NCBI GenBank assembly: GCA_008933995.1
Contig: WARS01000012.1
Span: 1,612,001-1,676,000, forward strand
Length of the DNA: 64,000 nucleotides
Direction: 5' to 3'
From: Datnioides undecimradiatus
Lineage: Eukaryota; Chordata; Actinopteri; Lobotiformes; Datnioididae
The notes beneath the pieces are model-generated. The model worked only from the letters and a program-made list of their open reading frames with translations, was not told where the DNA came from and made no database searches. Positions 2,692-64,000 of this stretch are shown piece after piece. Position 1 is the stretch's first letter. Each line of letters starts with the position of its first letter. Both the position numbers and the translations under genes were made by a program.

Positions 2692-2881
2692 ACCGCCAGA
2701 CGGTCTGACGCGATCCAGCCTCAGCATGAAAAAAGCTGCGCGCAACAGTTTTTATGTTGAAACACGGTGTTGTTGAGATCTTCTGGAGGCTGCATTTAAT
2801 TGGTTTTACTTCTGTCCAAAAAGTGAACGAGTGAATGAGTGTGGGTGTGTTTGCAGATGTGTGCGCGTGCGTGTGTTGATC

Positions 2882-2910
2882 GGAGCTGTCCGCAGCCTCG
2901 CGGTGCTGAA
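2882..2910 (-). promoter_or_regulatory. Split RE1 (REST/NRSF) element with expanded spacing
   Basis: Read on the minus strand, the half-site TTCAGCACC (2910-2902, 9 of 9 with the RE1 left half) is followed by a 10-base spacer and then GGACAGCTCC (2891-2882, 9 of 10 with the right half). A canonical RE1 has a 2-base gap, so the halves here are 8 bases further apart. REST binding to half-sites with expanded spacing is established for mammals. The position upstream of slc18a3 resembles the mammalian cholinergic RE1. Binding here is inferred. Confidence 0.6.
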
Positions 2911-3826
2911 ATCTCTTCGGCTCGCGCGGCTGCGGGTCGGTCATCAGCTTTATCGTCTTACACGGTGTTTTCAGGAAATTCTACTTTTTAGAAACTAACA
3001 TTGTAGAGAAGAATTGTTTCCTTAGGCAGCTGGTGGATGTAGTGACCTAAGTGCGTTTATAAGCTTAAACCTCGGGTCAATAATACTTTTAAAAACATAT
3101 CTATTTATAGCGAAAGATTTCCATTTGTTTTAAATATGTGGTATTTCAAGTCTTTAGATAAACATATAGGCCGAGTACATGTACCCACCTGCTAAAGTTT
3201 GCTATATGTGTTTGGTATTAATATCTTAACTGAGAATCATATTTTATTTGATTTTCATTAATTTATTACTGCAGATGTATCAGCTGTGCACGTGCGTACA
3301 TGTTTATGAATTCATACAGGGACAAAGAGGAATGATACCAAAGTCAAGAGTCACACGCTGGACATTAAGAAGAAGAAAGACTTTTTTTTTCTTCCAGGCT
3401 CCTGTAAAGGGTTCGTGATGTGGTGCTCACCGGCTCTTATTGGTTGAAGTGATTGCTGCCATGGCTGGAAATTAACATAAAAGAGGCGAGTGGCGAAGGG
3501 ATCCACTTGGGGGCAAGCTGGTGATGCGTCATAGCTCTTGGTGAAAAGGGGAAGACAAAAAAAAAAGGACTAAAATAGCGCCGAAGCTCCGGGTTAATGT
3601 GCACCAATGGCCACGAAGTCACTCGTGGTCTCAGAGCTGAGCGCAAAAGTGCCACAGGTGATAGGAGGTATGGACACAGTGATGAGAGAGCTCGAGCTCC
3701 TGAGGTGTTGCAAATAAGTGACCAAAAAATCTCTCCTAAACTAACTTTGCAATGTAAGATTAGCGGCCGAAACCTCTGCACGGTGCAGAAACTCTACGAT
3801 TTCACCACGTCACTTCTCGGGAGATC

Positions 3827-4085: not shown

Positions 4086-5654
4086 ATGGATGGAGAAGGA
4101 GGATCGTCCGGGCTGGTCAAATCAGCCGCCGTAAAACTATCCGAGATGGGAGAAAGAACCAAGCAGTTGGGCACCGCGATAAAGGATCCTCACCAGCAAA
4201 GACGGATCATATTAGTGATTGTTTGCGTGGCTCTCCTGCTGGACAATATGCTCTACATGGTAATCGTGCCAATTATTCCAGACTATCTTGCTGAGCTGGA
4301 GAGTGAGCAGTCAGAGCACGTCCACGTAGTGATGCACCCCAACACTTCAGCCAACAGCACAAGCCAAGACAAAAGCATCAAGGACAATTTAGACGTCCAG
4401 ATAGGAGTACTTTTTGCATCTAAAGCCATCCTGCAGCTCTTAGTTAACCCGCTGTCGGGAACTTTCATAGACCGGGTTGGATATGACATCCCACTTTTAA
4501 TTGGACTGACTGTTATGTTCGTGTCCACCTGCATATTTGCATTCGGGGAGAACTATGCGACGCTCTTTGCGGCCAGAAGTTTGCAGGGTCTGGGCTCTGC
4601 TTTCGCGGACACCTCTGGAATCGCGATGATAGCCGACAAATACACGGAGGAGTCAGAGAGGAGCAAGGCGCTGGGCATCGCGCTGGCGTTTATCTCGTTC
4701 GGGAGTCTGGTGGCGCCTCCCTTCGGGGGAGTCCTGTACGAGTTCGCGGGTAAGAGGGTGCCCTTCATCGTGCTCGCCTGCATTTGCCTGGCGGACGGCT
4801 TTCTGCTGTTGACGGTGATCAAGCCGTTCTCCAACAGGACTAGAGAGAACATGCCAGTCGGCACCCCCATATACAGACTCATGATTGACCCTTACATAGC
4901 TGTGGTGGCCGGGGCGCTGACAGTGTGCAACATCCCTCTGGCCTTTCTAGAGCCCACCATAGCCAACTGGATGGAGACCACCATGCACTCCTCTCAGTGG
5001 GAGATGGGGCTCACCTGGCTCCCAGCCTTCTTCCCTCATGTCCTCGGCGTGTACATAACAGTCAAATTGGCAGCGAAGAATCCAAATTTGCAGTGGTTCT
5101 ACGGAGCTTTGGGTATGGTTATCATAGGAGCGAGCTCCTGCACAGTCCCCGCATGCAAAACTTTTGCCCAGCTCATCGCCCCGCTGTGCGGCATTTGTTT
5201 TGGCATCGCTCTGGTCGACACCGCTCTGCTGCCGACGCTTGCGTTTTTAGTTGACGTGCGTCATGTTTCCGTGTATGGTAGTGTTTACGCTATAGCAGAT
5301 ATTTCCTACTCTGTTGCATACGCTATGGGCCCTATAGTTGCCGGTCAAATAGTTCACACGCTCGGTTTTGTTCAACTTAATCTGGGTATGGGCCTCGTTA
5401 ATGTGCTTTACGCGCCAGCCTTGCTGCTGCTGCGCAACGTGTGCCAAATGAAACCGTCCTACTCAGAGAGAGATAACCTGTTAGAGGAGGCTCCGCAGGG
5501 GCTGTACGATACTATAAAGATGGAGGAGAGGAGAGCTAAAAAGAAGGGCTACAGTTCGGCAGGGAATTGCCTGCCAGTAGATGAAAATGGGTTTGACCCC
5601 TTTAAAGCACAGCGGTCCTTGTCAGAAGAGTCGTCCGGTCCGGAGTACACTTAG
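4086..5654 (+). CDS. slc18a3: Vesicular acetylcholine transporter (VAChT), single exon
   Basis: This 522-residue protein of the major facilitator superfamily (SLC18 family) exchanges vesicular protons for cytosolic acetylcholine in cholinergic nerve terminals. Family-typical features are visible: a cytosolic N-terminus of about 40 residues, a first membrane segment with the conserved Asp near residue 53 ([16 protein letters not shown]), a luminal loop with N-glycosylation sequons near residues 86 and 90, about twelve hydrophobic segments, and a C-terminal tail with the SERDNLL dileucine-type sorting motif (Leu 465-466). The start ATG lies in a good Kozak context (caccATGG). The frame has no intron, as in other animals, and the gene sits just upstream of chat on the same strand, the conserved cholinergic locus. 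The leader probably comes from an unlocated shared exon. Teleosts often keep two copies (a and b); I cannot tell which this is. Confidence 0.97.
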
Positions 5655-6480: not shown

Positions 6481-7017
6481 GGTGATTTTATTCTTATTTC
6501 GAGCCACGAACGAATAAAAATGAAAGAACTGTTGAGCCCGTTGTGTTGGAAATGTGACGAAGTTTGACTCAACGTTCAAACTGTAGGAAAACAGCACGTT
6601 TGAAAAAGAAGAATCTAAGTTTATTTTGTGCGAAGGACAGAAAAAATACGAAACATCCTGTAATTAATGAAAAATAATAAAGTTTAATTCGGACTTCTGC
6701 CTCCCACTTGTTACACCTGTTCTCTCACTGTGCAGAACCAAGCACACAGACGGGGCAGAGAGAGCGCGCATTAGCCTCAATATAAAAACAACCACACACA
6801 CACACAAATGTAAATAAACGCATCCAAATGCGCAAAAGTTCCGAAAATTAGCTGCAAATCATTTCCCACACAAGCGCATCCCGCATGACAAAGTCTGCAG
6901 AAAACCCGGGACTTAAATCTGAGCAGTAAACGCACTGTCACAACTGTCATCCCTGTCGACCCGCCGGACCTTCACAGGACCCATGAATGACACACACCAG
7001 AAACAGACTCTCCCTCT

Positions 7018-7360
7018 TTTTATATATAATAAAATTATTATCGGATGTGGGCAAAGGGGGGTGGAGAAGGTGGGGGGGCGAAGCAAGCTGTTAGATAATA
7101 TGTTCCGCGAATAGATTTCGATGGGAGGAGTTTCATGCCTCAAGGGGGTAGGTAGACGCAAACACCTTCAGCATCTTTTCCACGGCGCGCTTTAATGTGG
7201 ACTCACAGCCTTATGGCGAGGCGAGGGGACCGGGGAGCAGTCCAGCGCCTACCCGGAGCCTTAAACTAATATGGGATTTCACAGCGTGGACATGGGAGGC
7301 AGCGTGAACTTCCACACACTTCTTTGACCTCTTGAGTATTGCACCGATCAGGTAAGGTAA
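7018..7360 (+). promoter_or_regulatory. Candidate chat-specific promoter and noncoding exon
   Basis: A TATATATAATAAAA stretch near 7021 is followed about 330 bases later by a good splice donor (CAG|GTAAGG, GT at 7352). The intervening sequence has no open frame that continues into chat. In mammals chat has several noncoding first exons and promoters downstream of the VAChT frame. An acceptor at 7982-7983 could join such an exon to the first coding exon. This is inference from motifs only. Confidence 0.35.
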
Positions 7361-7903
7361 CTTCTTTCTTTTCCATTTAACAAAATGAGGGGTTTTGTGT
7401 TTTATTAAGAACTTACTATCTGTTGCATGAGCCTCTTTGACGATTATGCTTCTTAAAAACTAATTTAAGTGACATAAAGTCTATTTTGCTGCATTGAAAA
7501 GTTAATACTTTTACATTTTTTCAATTATATCTCCAATGTTATGAATTTTTTGGCTGCAGGATAAGACAACAATTAATTAAAATGCCTTTAAAGAGTAAAA
7601 CTGCACTGAAACCACGCCCTAAAGTATAAATTGTTTCCCTTTGGCGGCTAATATGTTCATTTGTTTTAGGGAGAATTAAGCTGTTAGGGCTGAAATTGAG
7701 ATGAAATGACTTTTTAGGATGCATATGTCTTTGCAGTGGTGAGCGATGAGGCGCAGCTGGAATTCAAGGACATGCCGCAAATTGCATTAGGCTGCAAAAT
7801 GATGAAGGATGGAAGCCTGTTGGTTCACTTTCAGACAGCGAAACGTAGCACCATTGCTCAGGAGGCCTAATTATATTTACTTTTTTTATTTATTGTTATG
7901 TTT

Positions 7904-7923
7904 CTGCTCTCTCTCTCTCTCTC
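7904..7923. repeat. (CT)n tract before first chat coding exon
   Basis: A short run of CT dinucleotides lies about 60 bases before the candidate splice acceptor at 7982-7983. It may contribute to the pyrimidine-rich region of that acceptor, and may be length-polymorphic. Confidence 0.7.
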
Positions 7924-8016
7924 AAATGTCTCCACATGCTCCATGAAGGCTGCACTCGGACCGTGTCTAAACGGTTTCCACAGTATTTTCCCTTGACTGG
8001 GAGCGCAAATGCAAAG

Positions 8017-11000
8017 ATGCCAATCGTGGAGAAACAGTCGACCGGAGACCGAGACAGCCAAGTATGAAAACGTTTTCTTTTCACCAATCCATACTCGCCT
8101 TTTTACTAATGCAGCGCGCGGTCGCTGCCCTCGGTTCTGAAGTTGGCAACGTGAATTTCAGCACCACGGACAGCGGCGACGTCACTTACGGTGACTGACC
8201 GCTAGGGGCGAAAGTGACAAACAGGCCTTTCATCTGCCACAGGTGTAAAAACGCAACTCCAGACACGGTCACGTTGGTTAAATGTAACTAAGTACGTTTA
8301 CTCAAGTATCGCACTTCAATGTGTTCAACTTGTTTCTGAGCATTTCTGTTCTATACACATTTAATCTTGTAGTCCACCATCTCAGGAGGAAAACATTAGA
8401 CACATGCAGAGGAGTCGAAAAGTACAACAGCTCTAGTTACTTGTTACTTTTCAGATTACATACTGAAAAATGTAATCTAATTTTTTTTCCTGACAATCTG
8501 AAGGATTACGTCTTTCTCTGTGTTTTGAGAAAATTCTTCACAAGTTAAATTAACTACTTAAATGCTGTTAGTTAATTAGTACTTGTCACTCTGTTACTCT
8601 CCACTTCAGAGAGTGCATTTTGCCACTTTAAGTACAAGTTTAAACAAAGGACTTTCACGTGCAGAGGAGCGTTTTCACTCAGCGCTTCTTCCATCAACAC
8701 ATATATTACTTGTATTTTTTTCTCTGCAGTCTTTTTAATGAAGATTGAGCCACTGGAGCATTATACTATAATGGAGTTTGCATTTTATTTACTGTGGATT
8801 GATCAGCTCCTAACTGAATTAGTTTGTTTTTCCAGACCAACATATTACATAATTCAGCACAGTCCCCATTTCCAGGAATCCATTGCTAGACAACTTATTA
8901 TATAAATGCACTGCACTGGTCAATATTAACATCTCGGGTTAATAACAGTGCCATTATGCAAATGATCAAAACATCAGACAGAAAAGATAATTAACTTACA
9001 TTTTCCATCCTTAAAAAAAAGTGTTTTCAGGTCCCAAGAGGCTGTGGGACTTGGAAACACTCCAAGCATTTAAGATCAATTATTAACTTGGGTTCTAATA
9101 ATAAAAGCATAAGGAAAAGTGAACCCTTGATGAATCGTGAGACAGACACAGAAATGCTGAACAGCTGCTGTCCTTTCATTGCCCGTTATGAGTGTTAATG
9201 CTGATCTGTTGTTTTTATGACATCAGGTGCTGCCAAAGGTCCCCGTGCCACCGCTGAAACAAACCCTCGACACGTACTTGAAGTGCGTCCAACACCTGAT
9301 CACGGAGGAGCAGTTTCGGAAAACAAAGGCCATCGTGGAGAAGTTCGGGGCTCCGGGAGGCGTCGGAGAGGTTCTCCAGAAGAAACTTTTAGAGAGGAGG
9401 GATAAGACGGCCAACTGGGTAAACTCTGAGACCGGCAAGATGAGAAGGAGCGTGAACAGGAAAAATAGATATTTTGGTTTTTATCAAGTTTTAAGAGAGA
9501 GTTTCTCCTTTGACTCCCTGATTTGGAAACCTCAACAAAGTCATTATGAAATCAATAATGAATCCTCTTCAGTCAATATTCCTCTTGCATCTTTAATTAT
9601 GATTTAATCCTATTTAATGATTTTGACCTTTTACAACACTGTGTTTGTGCTCAGCCTCAGCTTCTTTGCTTTTTGTAATGATAAGGTATCGAACTTCTGC
9701 ATCTGATCTATTTAGGCTGAAAATAAGAATGAAAGTCGCCTCAGAGTTTGTCTCCAGGTTGATAAAATTCCTAAAATAACATCCACCCCATTCATAAAAG
9801 AGCTGAAAAATCACCAGGCGATGAAGATTTACTTCAATCTCTCCTCCTGCATCTGTGCGATCGGTCAGTCCACAACTCATCCAGCTCAGCGAAATCTATC
9901 ACGCTCCCACTCGCACGCCGACGCTCTCCCACTCTCCTTTTCATCTGGCAGTGATGCACTGTAATGGTTTTCTTACTCCACTGCACGCAGGTCTTACCTC
10001 TGAAAGTAATAACTTGAGTCCAAAGCGCTTCAAGAAGCCACATTTCTCAAAAAGCGTCCCCTGTGTTGTTGTTTAGGTCTATGACTACTGGCTGGAGGAC
10101 ATGTACTTGAACAACAGGTTGGCCTTGCCGGTCAACTCCAGTCCTGTCATGGTGTTTCCCAAGCAGACGTTCAGAGATCATAAAGATGCCCTCAGGTACG
10201 TGCTGGACTGGTAGTGCTCAGCTTTACCCCATCACCTTCGTTAGACCCTGTTGAAGTGACAGAAGCTGCTGCATATACTAAGACACGCAGCTGCAGGCAA
10301 CACGTGAAACAATATGATAAAATATGCATCTGTAACAGAAGATTCACTTTTTCCCTTGATCAAACTTAATACAAGAAAATATTACTTTTCTAATTTCAGA
10401 TGTAAAAGTCAGATTTTGGTTTGAGTCACTCACCTGGAGAGAGATTACAATGAATGAATGAATGAGATTACAATGAATGAATGACAATTATTTTGAATCA
10501 ATTCATTTCATAATTATTTCCTCAATAAACCAATCTGTCCAAAAAATGTCAGGATGTAGTAAAACTTCCCCACCACAGCTCCCCAGAGTCAAAGATGACG
10601 CCCTGATGCTTGTTTGATTTGACCCAAAGTCCGTAACTCAAAGACACTGAGTTCACTTTCACATGAGACAAAGAAAAGATGTGAATGTTCACATCTTCAG
10701 ATTTTACTTTTTTAAAAACTGACTTAAAGAAGATCTGATTGGCTAATCATCTATCATCTAAATGACTATCAAAGTCATTTTAAGATGAAGAAATGTAGGA
10801 AACCTGAGCAGAATAACTGCAACACAGTGAGTCCCAGAATGCACTGAGCATCGAAGACTGTGGGCTGTGAAGAAGAAGTCTTCATCCACCAAACAGTGAA
10901 GGTTTAGTTTTTGCAACAGCATCACTGACAGCAGACAGTATATCACTCTGCCGAGCAGCTGCTGAGGGGCTTTATGCTCCTCTCAGCAGGCACAGATTAA

Positions 11001-14000: not shown

Positions 14001-17000
14001 AAAATCCTGCATGGATGCAGGGTTTTGTCTTTTTTAGCTAATCTGCCATCTCTCAGTTTGTTGTAGGAATGGACGGGGTATGCGGAGTGGTGTGCGAGCA
14101 TTCGCCCTTTGAAGGAATAGTTCTGGTGCAGTGCTCTGAATACGTGATGAAGTACATGTAAGTCAGTCACTGAATACTGTGGCCTCAGTGACACCTGCCG
14201 AAGCCATCAGTGACAGAAGTGCTGTTGTTGTCGTGAACAGAAACGGGAGTCCTTCTAAGATGGCGAGAGCGTCCAGCGTCAGAGAGCTTCCCCCTCCGAG
14301 AAGGCTGCTCTGGAAATGTAACGCACACACCCAGGGGCTCTTAACAGCATCTGGAGACAGACTGCAGAGGCAAGAGCAACAAAAACAAACTAACACAAAA
14401 CTACATCTGCAAATAAGTGTGTAGATAGACACCAGGTCTCATTTGTGCCTCCTTCCTGCAGGCTGGTGAATAATCTTGACATGGATGTTTTCAAGTTTAA
14501 CGTTTACGGGAAAGACTTCATCAAAAAGCAGAAGATGAGTCCGGATGCGTTCATACAAGTTGCATTACAACTTGCATTTTACAAGTAAAGTTCAGTTATG
14601 ATCTATAGCTTCAAACTGTATGAGATATGTCCAACTACGGACTTTCAAACATGCTAAAATTGTCTTGAACCTGTCAGATGCAGTGGGAGGCTCGTGTCCA
14701 CGTATGAGAGTGCGTCCATTCGGCGATTCCAAGAAGGTCGGGTTGATAACATCCGCTCTGCCACCCCTGAGGCCCTGGCCTTCGTGATGTCCATGACAGA
14801 TGAGAGAGCCACTTTCACCGTGAGTCATTTTTCTCACTTTGACCCCCAATTACTGACTGACTCCCACATTACTGTTCATCACAGCCGCTTAAATGAAACA
14901 GGTGCGAGCAGCCGCCTCGACACGCCAAACCCAGTCTGCCCATTTAAACAGACGATCTCCCTGCAGATTAAATGGGCCTATGAAAGATGAATTTACTGCC
15001 TGTACCGTTCTCTGTTTGTGCAGTGTGAAAACTGCCCCGTGTTCAGTTTTCCTCAACATAACTTCTCACTTTTTTAACAGGATTCAGAAAAAATGAAACG
15101 ACTGAGGGATGCAATTAATGCCCAGACAAGTTACACAATTGCAGTAAGTATTGCAATGAGTATATAAGTAGTGGTTGTAGTTGTAGTAGTAGTATTTGTG
15201 CTTTTATTAGAATTGATAGTGTTATTACTATTAATATACATGTGGCAGCCAGAATGTGCAACCTTCACGACTAAACATGATGTTAAAGTGTTGCTCAGTG
15301 TCCTCCATCATCTCTTGGAGACTTAAAGGACTTGGTCAACATTTCGGGAAAATTCAATTAGTCATTTTATTGATGAAAGTTAGATGGAGAGATACATACC
15401 AGTCTTGTGTTGTAAATCTGAAGCCCATGACAGTTAGCTTAGCACAAAGACTGGAAGCAGAGGGAAACAGCTAGCCTACCAGGGTCTCCAACATTCATTA
15501 CTGACGCGTTGGATGTTGTTAGTTAAGTCTGGGACTGAACTCAAGGGTTCAAACACCTAGTTGTGGTTTTGTGAACTACTTCTTTGCCAGCGCAGTGACC
15601 AGGTGGTCTTGTCTTTGACAAGCGACTTGAGGGATTCAGCAAGCTGCACTGCACCTGGTCAAGAAATAGACTCGTAACCCCCAATACAGCCACAACCTGT
15701 GCTTTTTACATTTCGTTTTCTCTACGGACACAAATGTGTGTGTATGAAATGGTGTCCGAACACACTCGGTAAACAAAACTCAAAAACTGGGCAGTGCCCA
15801 TCAAACAGAGATCAAGACTCTGTATCTGTATTGTCTGTTTCTTACCTCAAATGCTTTTAAGACATATTTAATCCTAATTGACAAAAATTCATTACTACTA
15901 AGAAAATATGTGTGTGTATATATTTCAGGCTATTACAGGAATGGCAATAGACAATCATCTCCTCGGGCTTCTGAGGATCTCAAAGGAGCTCAACATGGAG
16001 AGGCCAGAGATCTTCTGTGACCAGACATATCTGGCCAGCAACCAGTTCATCCTCTCTACCAGTCAGGTGACATGTGATCCCATTTTTATTTTACATGCCA
16101 TGCAAAACCCTGAGTCATGAAGTTCATGTTTTGTTACGTTTGTCCTGGTGAAACGTTAATGAAACAGAGGGTTGAACTGGAACATAGTAGTGTCATTTGG
16201 TGAAGGTAGAAAGTACAGATGAGACATCTAGTGAGCTGAAACACCTTCAGTCACTGCAACGAAAATACACATGCATACATACCAGAATAGTGAAGATCCA
16301 GTGTCCACAAACAATACAGTTGTGGTTTCCTGGATGCTACTCTGCACAGTACAAGTATAAATAGCTGAGGGGGAGGTGATTTAAGAAGTGCTGCGTAACT
16401 TTACTGCATCCCTCTTCGCAGGAACTGAGACTGAAAAAAGTGCAATTGCAACACAACAAAACTTCACAAAATGCACAGGACTAATTAAAAGTGCTGGTGT
16501 TTGGGATCCTCACCGTGAGCCCTGTGCTTCCTGTTTCTTTCTTTTTAATTGGAGACCCTGCCAGACTCATCTACTGCCCCAAGTACAGAGTTTATTCACT
16601 TAGAGCTTTCCAGACAGCACCGAAAAGAATAATTATTTATTTATACAAAATACTTAAAGCAGTCACATACAAAACTCTATAGTAAGTGTAAACTATGCAA
16701 AAAAATACACCTTTTTGGTCATTTATCTAAAAAAATGCCAACTATTTGCTGCAATCAGTGTGTCAAATGTGTAGATTCGGTTCTTCTTCTGTTTAATCAT
16801 GTGTGCACTCTGATTAATTTTACTCAAAAACTACACATATTGTTCTCTTTACTGGTCCAGTTCAGACTCTATGCTCTTGTTTCCAGGTCCCTACCACAGT
16901 GGAAATGTTCTGTTGCTACGGCCCGGTGGTGCCCAACGGCTACGGCGCCTGCTACAACCCGCAGTCCGACCACATCATCTTCTGTGTGTCCAGTTTCTGG

Positions 17001-32639: not shown

Positions 32640-50704
<18,065 letters not shown>

Positions 50705-62835: not shown

Positions 62836-63758
62836 TCACTTTTTATGCTGTCCACGGGCAAAATGGCATGCAAAGTCGTATTTGTCCACGCACATATGAC
62901 CACAGATGTTGCACTGGAATGGATGTTCGTAGCCATGGCAGCCCATGTGAATGGTGTAGAGGATATTATCCAGAAACTGAACATCACAATGATGGCATTT
63001 ATGTAAGAGCTGTTGGTCCGGTGTGGCCAGGGCAGGGGCCGGTGTGCTGGGTTGGCTGTTGCCAACACTTGCAGTAAGAGTGTTGCTCTCAAAGCTGAGG
63101 CCGGGCACAGGACTGGATCTCCCTTGGCATGAGGTAGGAGACTCTTTAGGTGGTGAAGTCTGTACTCCATTTGAACACACCGCAATGTGTTCACTAGAGA
63201 CCTGCTGTATGAGGATGGGCTTCTCGTCTGTTAAAGACTCTCTGTCTGGGGATGCAGGGGTCTGAGAGTCAGGGTGAAGGTCGGCTAACTGACCGGCAAG
63301 TGTAGAGAGCTGGTCCAGTGGGTTATTAAAAGTCAAACCATTAGCACCTCTGTTGCGACTGTCATTCTCATCTACCTTGGGAAGGTTCTTGTACTCACTA
63401 CTGTTCAAATGGTGGTGGATCTTGTGAGACAAGTCATTCAGATAGTCCGACTTTGGCAATCCCATGGAGGGAGGGTTGAAGTTAATGAGCAGTCGCCTGC
63501 CATAGCCCAGCGAGCTCGTCCTCTTCTGCAGGGAGCTCAGCATTCTCTTGCTGGAGAAAGGAGAGCGGACAACCCTCGTGGGCAGGAGCTTGTGGCGACG
63601 GCGCCGGTGGTGCGACAGGTTGCTACGGTCGCTACAGCGGAAGGTGCAGAGGTCACACTTGTACGGCTTCTCCCCCGTGTGCGAGCGCATGTGGGCTTCC
63701 AAGTGGCGTTCGTATGCTGAAGCAAACGGGCACAGCTGGCAGCGGTGAGGCTTTTCTC
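62836..63758 (-). CDS. ikzf5: Ikaros family zinc finger 5 (Pegasus), last coding exon (partial gene)
   Basis: This exon encodes the last 306 residues or so of a C2H2 zinc-finger transcription repressor (the human protein has about 419). It starts in the linker GEKPHRC after an acceptor at 63759-63760. It holds two DNA-binding fingers (CQLC...HMRSH and CDLC...RRRRH), then LGYGRRLLINFNPPSM, NPLDQLSTLAGQL and GNSQPSTPAPAL as in the mammalian protein. At the end is the two-finger dimerisation module typical of the Ikaros family (CHHCDVQFLDNILYTIH and CNICGHMCVDKYDFACH). The stop follows RGQHKK. The upstream exons, with the start codon and the first finger, lie beyond the right edge. The gene is tail-to-tail with pstk, as in human 10q26. 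Confidence 0.95.
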
Positions 63759-64000
63759 CTGAGTGACAGTAACAAAGAAAACAAGTGCAGTCATAATATT
63801 GGTATTGCCATGCATGTTTTACTGTGAAAGAGTAAACAGTGTGTACAGAGTAGTATGTGTGCTGCACTGGTGAGAATACAAAGTGGAGCTATACATTATT
63901 CAAAATAGGGATAGCAAGAAGATCTTTCATCCTTGTCAGGTTGATGCAGGTCAACTTATAACTGTAAATCAAACTGGAACTGTAATTTTCATAAGATATT
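63759..64000 (-). other. ikzf5 intron, cut by the window edge
   Basis: Sequence upstream of the ikzf5 last exon with a normal acceptor (pyrimidine-rich, ending ACTCAG). No further exon is seen before the window ends. Confidence 0.6.

Follow-up and report, generated by a model that had tools for sequence, protein, structure and literature searches.

The window analysed here, a stretch of 64,000 nucleotides from the 581-Mb genome of Datnioides undecimradiatus, carries a cholinergic gene locus in which the gene for VAChT (slc18a3) is followed by chat (Table 1). The protein encoded by the predicted first chat exon begins with residues that resemble MPILEK of the rat enzyme. Two further open frames reside on the minus strand. 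One of them (49704-50546, 280 aa) is without a Pfam match and resembles the start of PARG, while the other (62836-63888) encodes C2H2 zinc fingers that appear Ikaros-like by eye, with both Pfam matches below the curated cut-off. Relatives of VAChT were also sought in collections of prokaryote (genome_contigs) and virus (viral_contigs) sequences, where 25 and 3 pattern matches, respectively, were obtained and none was confirmed, as expected for a vertebrate gene.

Table 1. Genes and REST-related sequence elements at the VAChT/chat locus. Positions are those of the window.
Feature	Position	Strand	Evidence and remarks
Split (non-canonical) RE1, TTCAGCACC-10-GGACAGCTCC	2882-2910	-	Upstream of VAChT; 18/19 over both halves
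VAChT (slc18a3) coding frame and stop	4086-5654 (open frame 4086-5651 plus stop)	+	PDB VAChT chains, E 1.3e-214; Pfam MFS_1
First chat coding exon (predicted), 15 residues	8017-8061	+	Translation; donor GTATGA directly after
chat intron 1 (predicted), 1,165 bases	8062-9226	+	Adjoining exons and GT/AG borders; contains the RE1 pair
Second RE1-like site, TTCAGAACCGAGGGCAGCGAC	8121-8141	-	16/19; inverted relative to 8157-8177
Canonical RE1/NRSE, TTCAGCACCACGGACAGCGGC	8157-8177	+	chat intron 1; 18/19 fixed consensus positions
CRE-like TGACGTC	8178-8184	-	Directly adjoins RE1; sole TGACGTC in 7001-9300, both strands
chat exon 2	9227-9418	+	PDB choline O-acetyltransferase, E 3.3e-28; Pfam PF00755

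The canonical site in chat intron 1 has the layout of its class, i.e. a 21-bp motif made up of two half-sites with a 2-bp spacer. The consensus used for scoring agrees with the 21-bp form given in PMC3529185. If the two free spacer positions are included as fits, the score becomes 20/21, just as stated by the initial annotation, which had described a near-perfect canonical RE1 at this place. Its location between VAChT and chat exon 2, 95 bases past the end of chat exon 1 (8061), had likewise been given correctly. Shuffles, shuffled motifs and a backwards control all place the site beyond chance, in the sequence as well as in the host genome. When the window was dinucleotide-shuffled 200 times, the top score was 16, reached in two shuffles, compared with 18 for the real site; 20,000 shuffles of the 401 bases from 7900 to 8300 yielded 16 once and 17 never, and 1,000 column-shuffled motifs run against the real window yielded 17 once and 18 never. 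Genome-wide, the strict pattern TTCAGCACCNNGGACAGNGNC has 146 matches, a number that may be inflated because twin contigs may be duplicated haplotypes in the assembly, and the reversed pattern has none. Such twins are seen at G000:C205:844347 and C207:844562 and at C215:1510386 and C218:1509158, where identical RE1 sites are found at nearly the same contig position.

The sole mismatch of TTCAGCACCACGGACAGCGGC is at position 20, which is loosely constrained in the host genome: among the 100 matches listed of the 146, this position is occupied by A in 39, C in 36, G in 17 and T in 8 cases. The same 100 matches include four copies of the exact 21-mer, counting the one in chat intron 1. A different kind of arrangement occurs at G000:C315:14455668-14455787, where three strict RE1 sites with the same orientation follow each other at distances of about 50 bases. 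The CRE-like motif next to the canonical RE1 might connect the locus to the control of cholinergic genes by cAMP or might be there by chance; any role is speculative.

The canonical RE1 does not stand alone. It is faced by an RE1-like site on the minus strand that is absent from the initial annotation. Only 15 bases separate the two sites, their TTCAG ends point towards each other and their centres are 36 bases apart. In shuffled windows, hits scoring at least 16 averaged 0.01 per window; 20,000 local shuffles contained one such score, and with 1,000 column-shuffled motifs a pair within 100 bases never arose. An inverted partner scoring at least 15 within 100 bases was found at none of 20 other strong RE1 sites (the first 20 of the 146, with 10 kb each), and a direct partner with a score of 15 was present at one of these 20 loci (L011). 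Seven split arrangements scoring at least 16 were found in five of the 20 loci (L010, L012, L014, L025 and L026). Their gaps amount to 3, 8, 13, 18 and 19 bases, never to 10, and their scores reach at most 17/19. At L012, L014, L025 and L026, the left half in the split matches is that of the canonical RE1 itself. At L010, the matches include a second, complete right half close to the RE1 of that locus. By eye, the likeness between the two intronic sites of the window fades beyond the motif. A hairpin formed by the inverted pair was considered and rejected, as the z-score is -0.25 and 78 of 200 shuffles fold equally well. Nor does an origin from a repeat find support within the window, where chat intron 1 and the segments 2700-3100 and 7100-7360 match themselves only.

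Upstream of VAChT, 1,175 bases before the ATG, both RE1 half-sites are present in the proper order and score 9/9 and 9/10, with a gap of 10 bases vs the canonical 2. When gaps from 0 to 20 were scanned in the window, none besides 2 and 10 gave more than 15/19, and the top score in 100 shuffles at gaps of 7-10 was 16, compared with 18 for the real split site. The 10 kb preceding the window (L009) contain neither a canonical match of 14 or higher nor a split match of 15 or higher at gaps of 7-10. The initial annotation had noted a weaker split site in this upstream position. Its presence is confirmed, and it is no remnant: the halves are near-perfect and recur identically in a paralogous locus.

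This second locus resides at G000:C337 in the same genome, with a VAChT gene of 81% identity and its own chat gene downstream, exon 2 of which is 68% identical. We analysed a 20-kb stretch (L034 and L035) that reaches past the last chat exon (match at 14628-14837 of the joined stretch). The split site of the paralogue (L034:3642-3670) has its half-sites in the same order, is situated on the same (minus) strand 917 bases before the VAChT start and has a gap of exactly 10. Its half-sites are identical to those in the window in 19 of 19 letters, including a common departure from the consensus. Around and between them the two loci have diverged: the spacer is identical in 4 of 10 positions and the 30-base flanks in 10 and 9 positions (19/60), and blastn (E up to 0.01) of the first 12 kb of the window against L034 yielded matches at coding exons only. 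Identical half-sites and an identical gap amid diverged flanks point at an element that resembles a binding site and has been kept since the duplication. The situation in the chat gene is different. At L034:7979-8436, the predicted first chat exon of the paralogue (MPVLDPEPPKDLGGGD) is followed by an intron 1 of some 410 bases, about one third of the length in the window (1,165 bases). RE1 scores in this short intron reach at most 10/19; in the entire 20 kb of the paralogue, a single canonical match of 13/19 is the highest. As judged from these two sequences, the intronic RE1 pair is a feature of one copy only, either by gain there or by loss in the other copy. Gain is modestly favoured because a legend in PMC4777549 gives a position upstream of both VAChT and ChAT for the RE1 in human. 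The proposal that REST control had been relocated into the intron is not supported, since the upstream split site is kept in both copies. What stands of the related idea of a duplicated RE1 is that this copy has an additional site.

The gap of the split site deserves attention. Human ChIP-nexus data revealed NRSE gaps of 2 or 7-9 bases (PMC8096226), and in a human reporter assay silencing was reported at gaps of 8 and 9 only (PMC9903721). The non-canonical, extended-spacer NRSEs described in these two reports are the closest class, but the gap is 10 in both Datnioides loci and thus lies outside either range, although the count depends on where the half-sites are bounded and papers may count differently. 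The conserved 10-base gap is the oddest point of the whole arrangement. Two examples argue that it is not unique: CELSR3 motifs with 11 bp between left and right half were bound in EMSA (PMC8096226), and NRSF from human and from fugu bound a mariner NRSE with a 10-bp gap, also in EMSA (PMC4777549). Deletion of the latter was without effect on the silencer concerned. An earlier ChIP-PET study gives gaps "expanded by 7-11" (PMC2573930). A tentative scenario, which we put forward at well below even chances, is that the split RE1 was held at 10 bases in both loci, a spacing without silencing activity in the human assay, so that REST in this fish, or this locus in native chromatin, would use a wider gap. 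One duplicate would then have gained the facing pair in intron 1, which could divide REST sensitivity between the loci.

The rat equivalent of the mammalian cholinergic RE1 is located upstream of VAChT, and L1CAM is a gene with an intronic RE1. For human, the legend cited above describes the same upstream location. The likeness of the Datnioides locus to this system, compared by position and not by letters, consists in a REST-type site upstream of VAChT in the same gene pair. It differs in the 10 bases that separate the halves of the upstream site and in the presence of an extra pair with a canonical member in chat intron 1. The second parallel concerns REST sites within genes, for which a title cited in PMC4055426 names an intronic RE1 in synaptophysin. 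Unlike in synaptophysin and L1CAM, two facing sites are combined here with one upstream. Intragenic REST peaks are common and make up 28% and 25% of the peaks in two human cell types (PMC4055426). None of the titles and abstract starts listed in literature searches dealt with the position of RE1 in fish chat/slc18a3.

The sequences of the three sites, their occurrence beyond chance and the pattern of conservation between the two loci are, with reasonable confidence, best explained by a REST-type silencer with two putative REST inputs, i.e. a split RE1 with a gap of 10 upstream of VAChT that is common to the duplicate, and a copy-specific facing RE1 pair in chat intron 1. REST would bind the RE1 sites in non-neuronal cells and progenitors and would recruit the corepressors CoREST, HDAC, Sin3A and G9a. 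As a consequence, chat and probably also the nested VAChT gene would be kept off, and the locus would open as REST drops in neurons. The intronic pair would most likely strengthen silencing of this copy and not substitute for the upstream site. REST would thereby probably silence chat, perhaps even the whole locus, outside neurons. This putative function is supported by several reports. An NRSE one base off TTCAGCACCACGGACAGCGGC biased zebrafish transgenes toward neural tissue when present in two tandem copies (PMC3529185). CHAT is listed as a known target that is REST-bound in at least 14 of 16 human cell types (PMC4055426), LPS increased REST at the CpG island of the rat Chat promoter about 10-fold (PMC9441808), and in EMSA two bound complexes, seen as two shifted bands, formed when NRSEs were spaced 9 bp apart (PMC8096226). 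Several points count against the explanation that we prefer: the partner site at 8121-8141 reaches just 16/19, the gap of 10 falls outside the reported 7-9 and 8-9, UAS reporters remained unrestricted despite NRSE copies in the very zebrafish study just mentioned (PMC3529185), and partners were checked at 20 of the 146 RE1 sites.

Three other readings of the intronic sites have to be weighed. It is quite conceivable, if not the version we would bet on, that the intronic RE1 was already there in the ancestor of vertebrates, or in that of both fish copies, and was lost from the paralogue, so that nothing new arose in the window. The short intron 1 of the paralogue (410 vs 1,165 bases) looks as if it had suffered a deletion, and our comparison covers a single paralogue. 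Against an ancestral intronic site speaks the upstream position of the human RE1 according to the legend in PMC4777549. A literature search on REST sites in introns of CHAT/SLC18A3, which listed a single paper, on neuronal reprogramming, points in the same direction; it is a weak argument as most subscription papers were outside the coverage of the search.

Alternatively, and in line with what the initial annotation had suggested, the intronic pair could provide chat with its own REST control, uncoupled from that of VAChT, as a case of subfunctionalisation after duplication. The pair indeed lies within the chat intron, downstream of VAChT and in one copy only. We nevertheless regard such separate control as rather improbable, given that REST acts over kilobases, that the pair is about 4 kb away from the VAChT start and that the upstream site is still present. 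Still less credit is due to the notion that the match in the intron arose by chance, or is put to little use, and that only the upstream split site matters. It is true that the split site is the element common to both loci, yet a match of 18/19 with a neighbour of 16/19 is far beyond what shuffles produce, and the genome-wide backwards control gave zero.

For the biology of the cholinergic locus, two aspects stand out. The conserved 10-base gap calls into question whether the 8-9 rule derived from human reporter data applies outside that assay. Moreover, with a split site alone at one locus and a split site plus an intronic pair at the other, the paired loci of this single genome constitute a natural experiment on whether duplicated neurotransmitter genes are silenced differently when extra REST sites are present.
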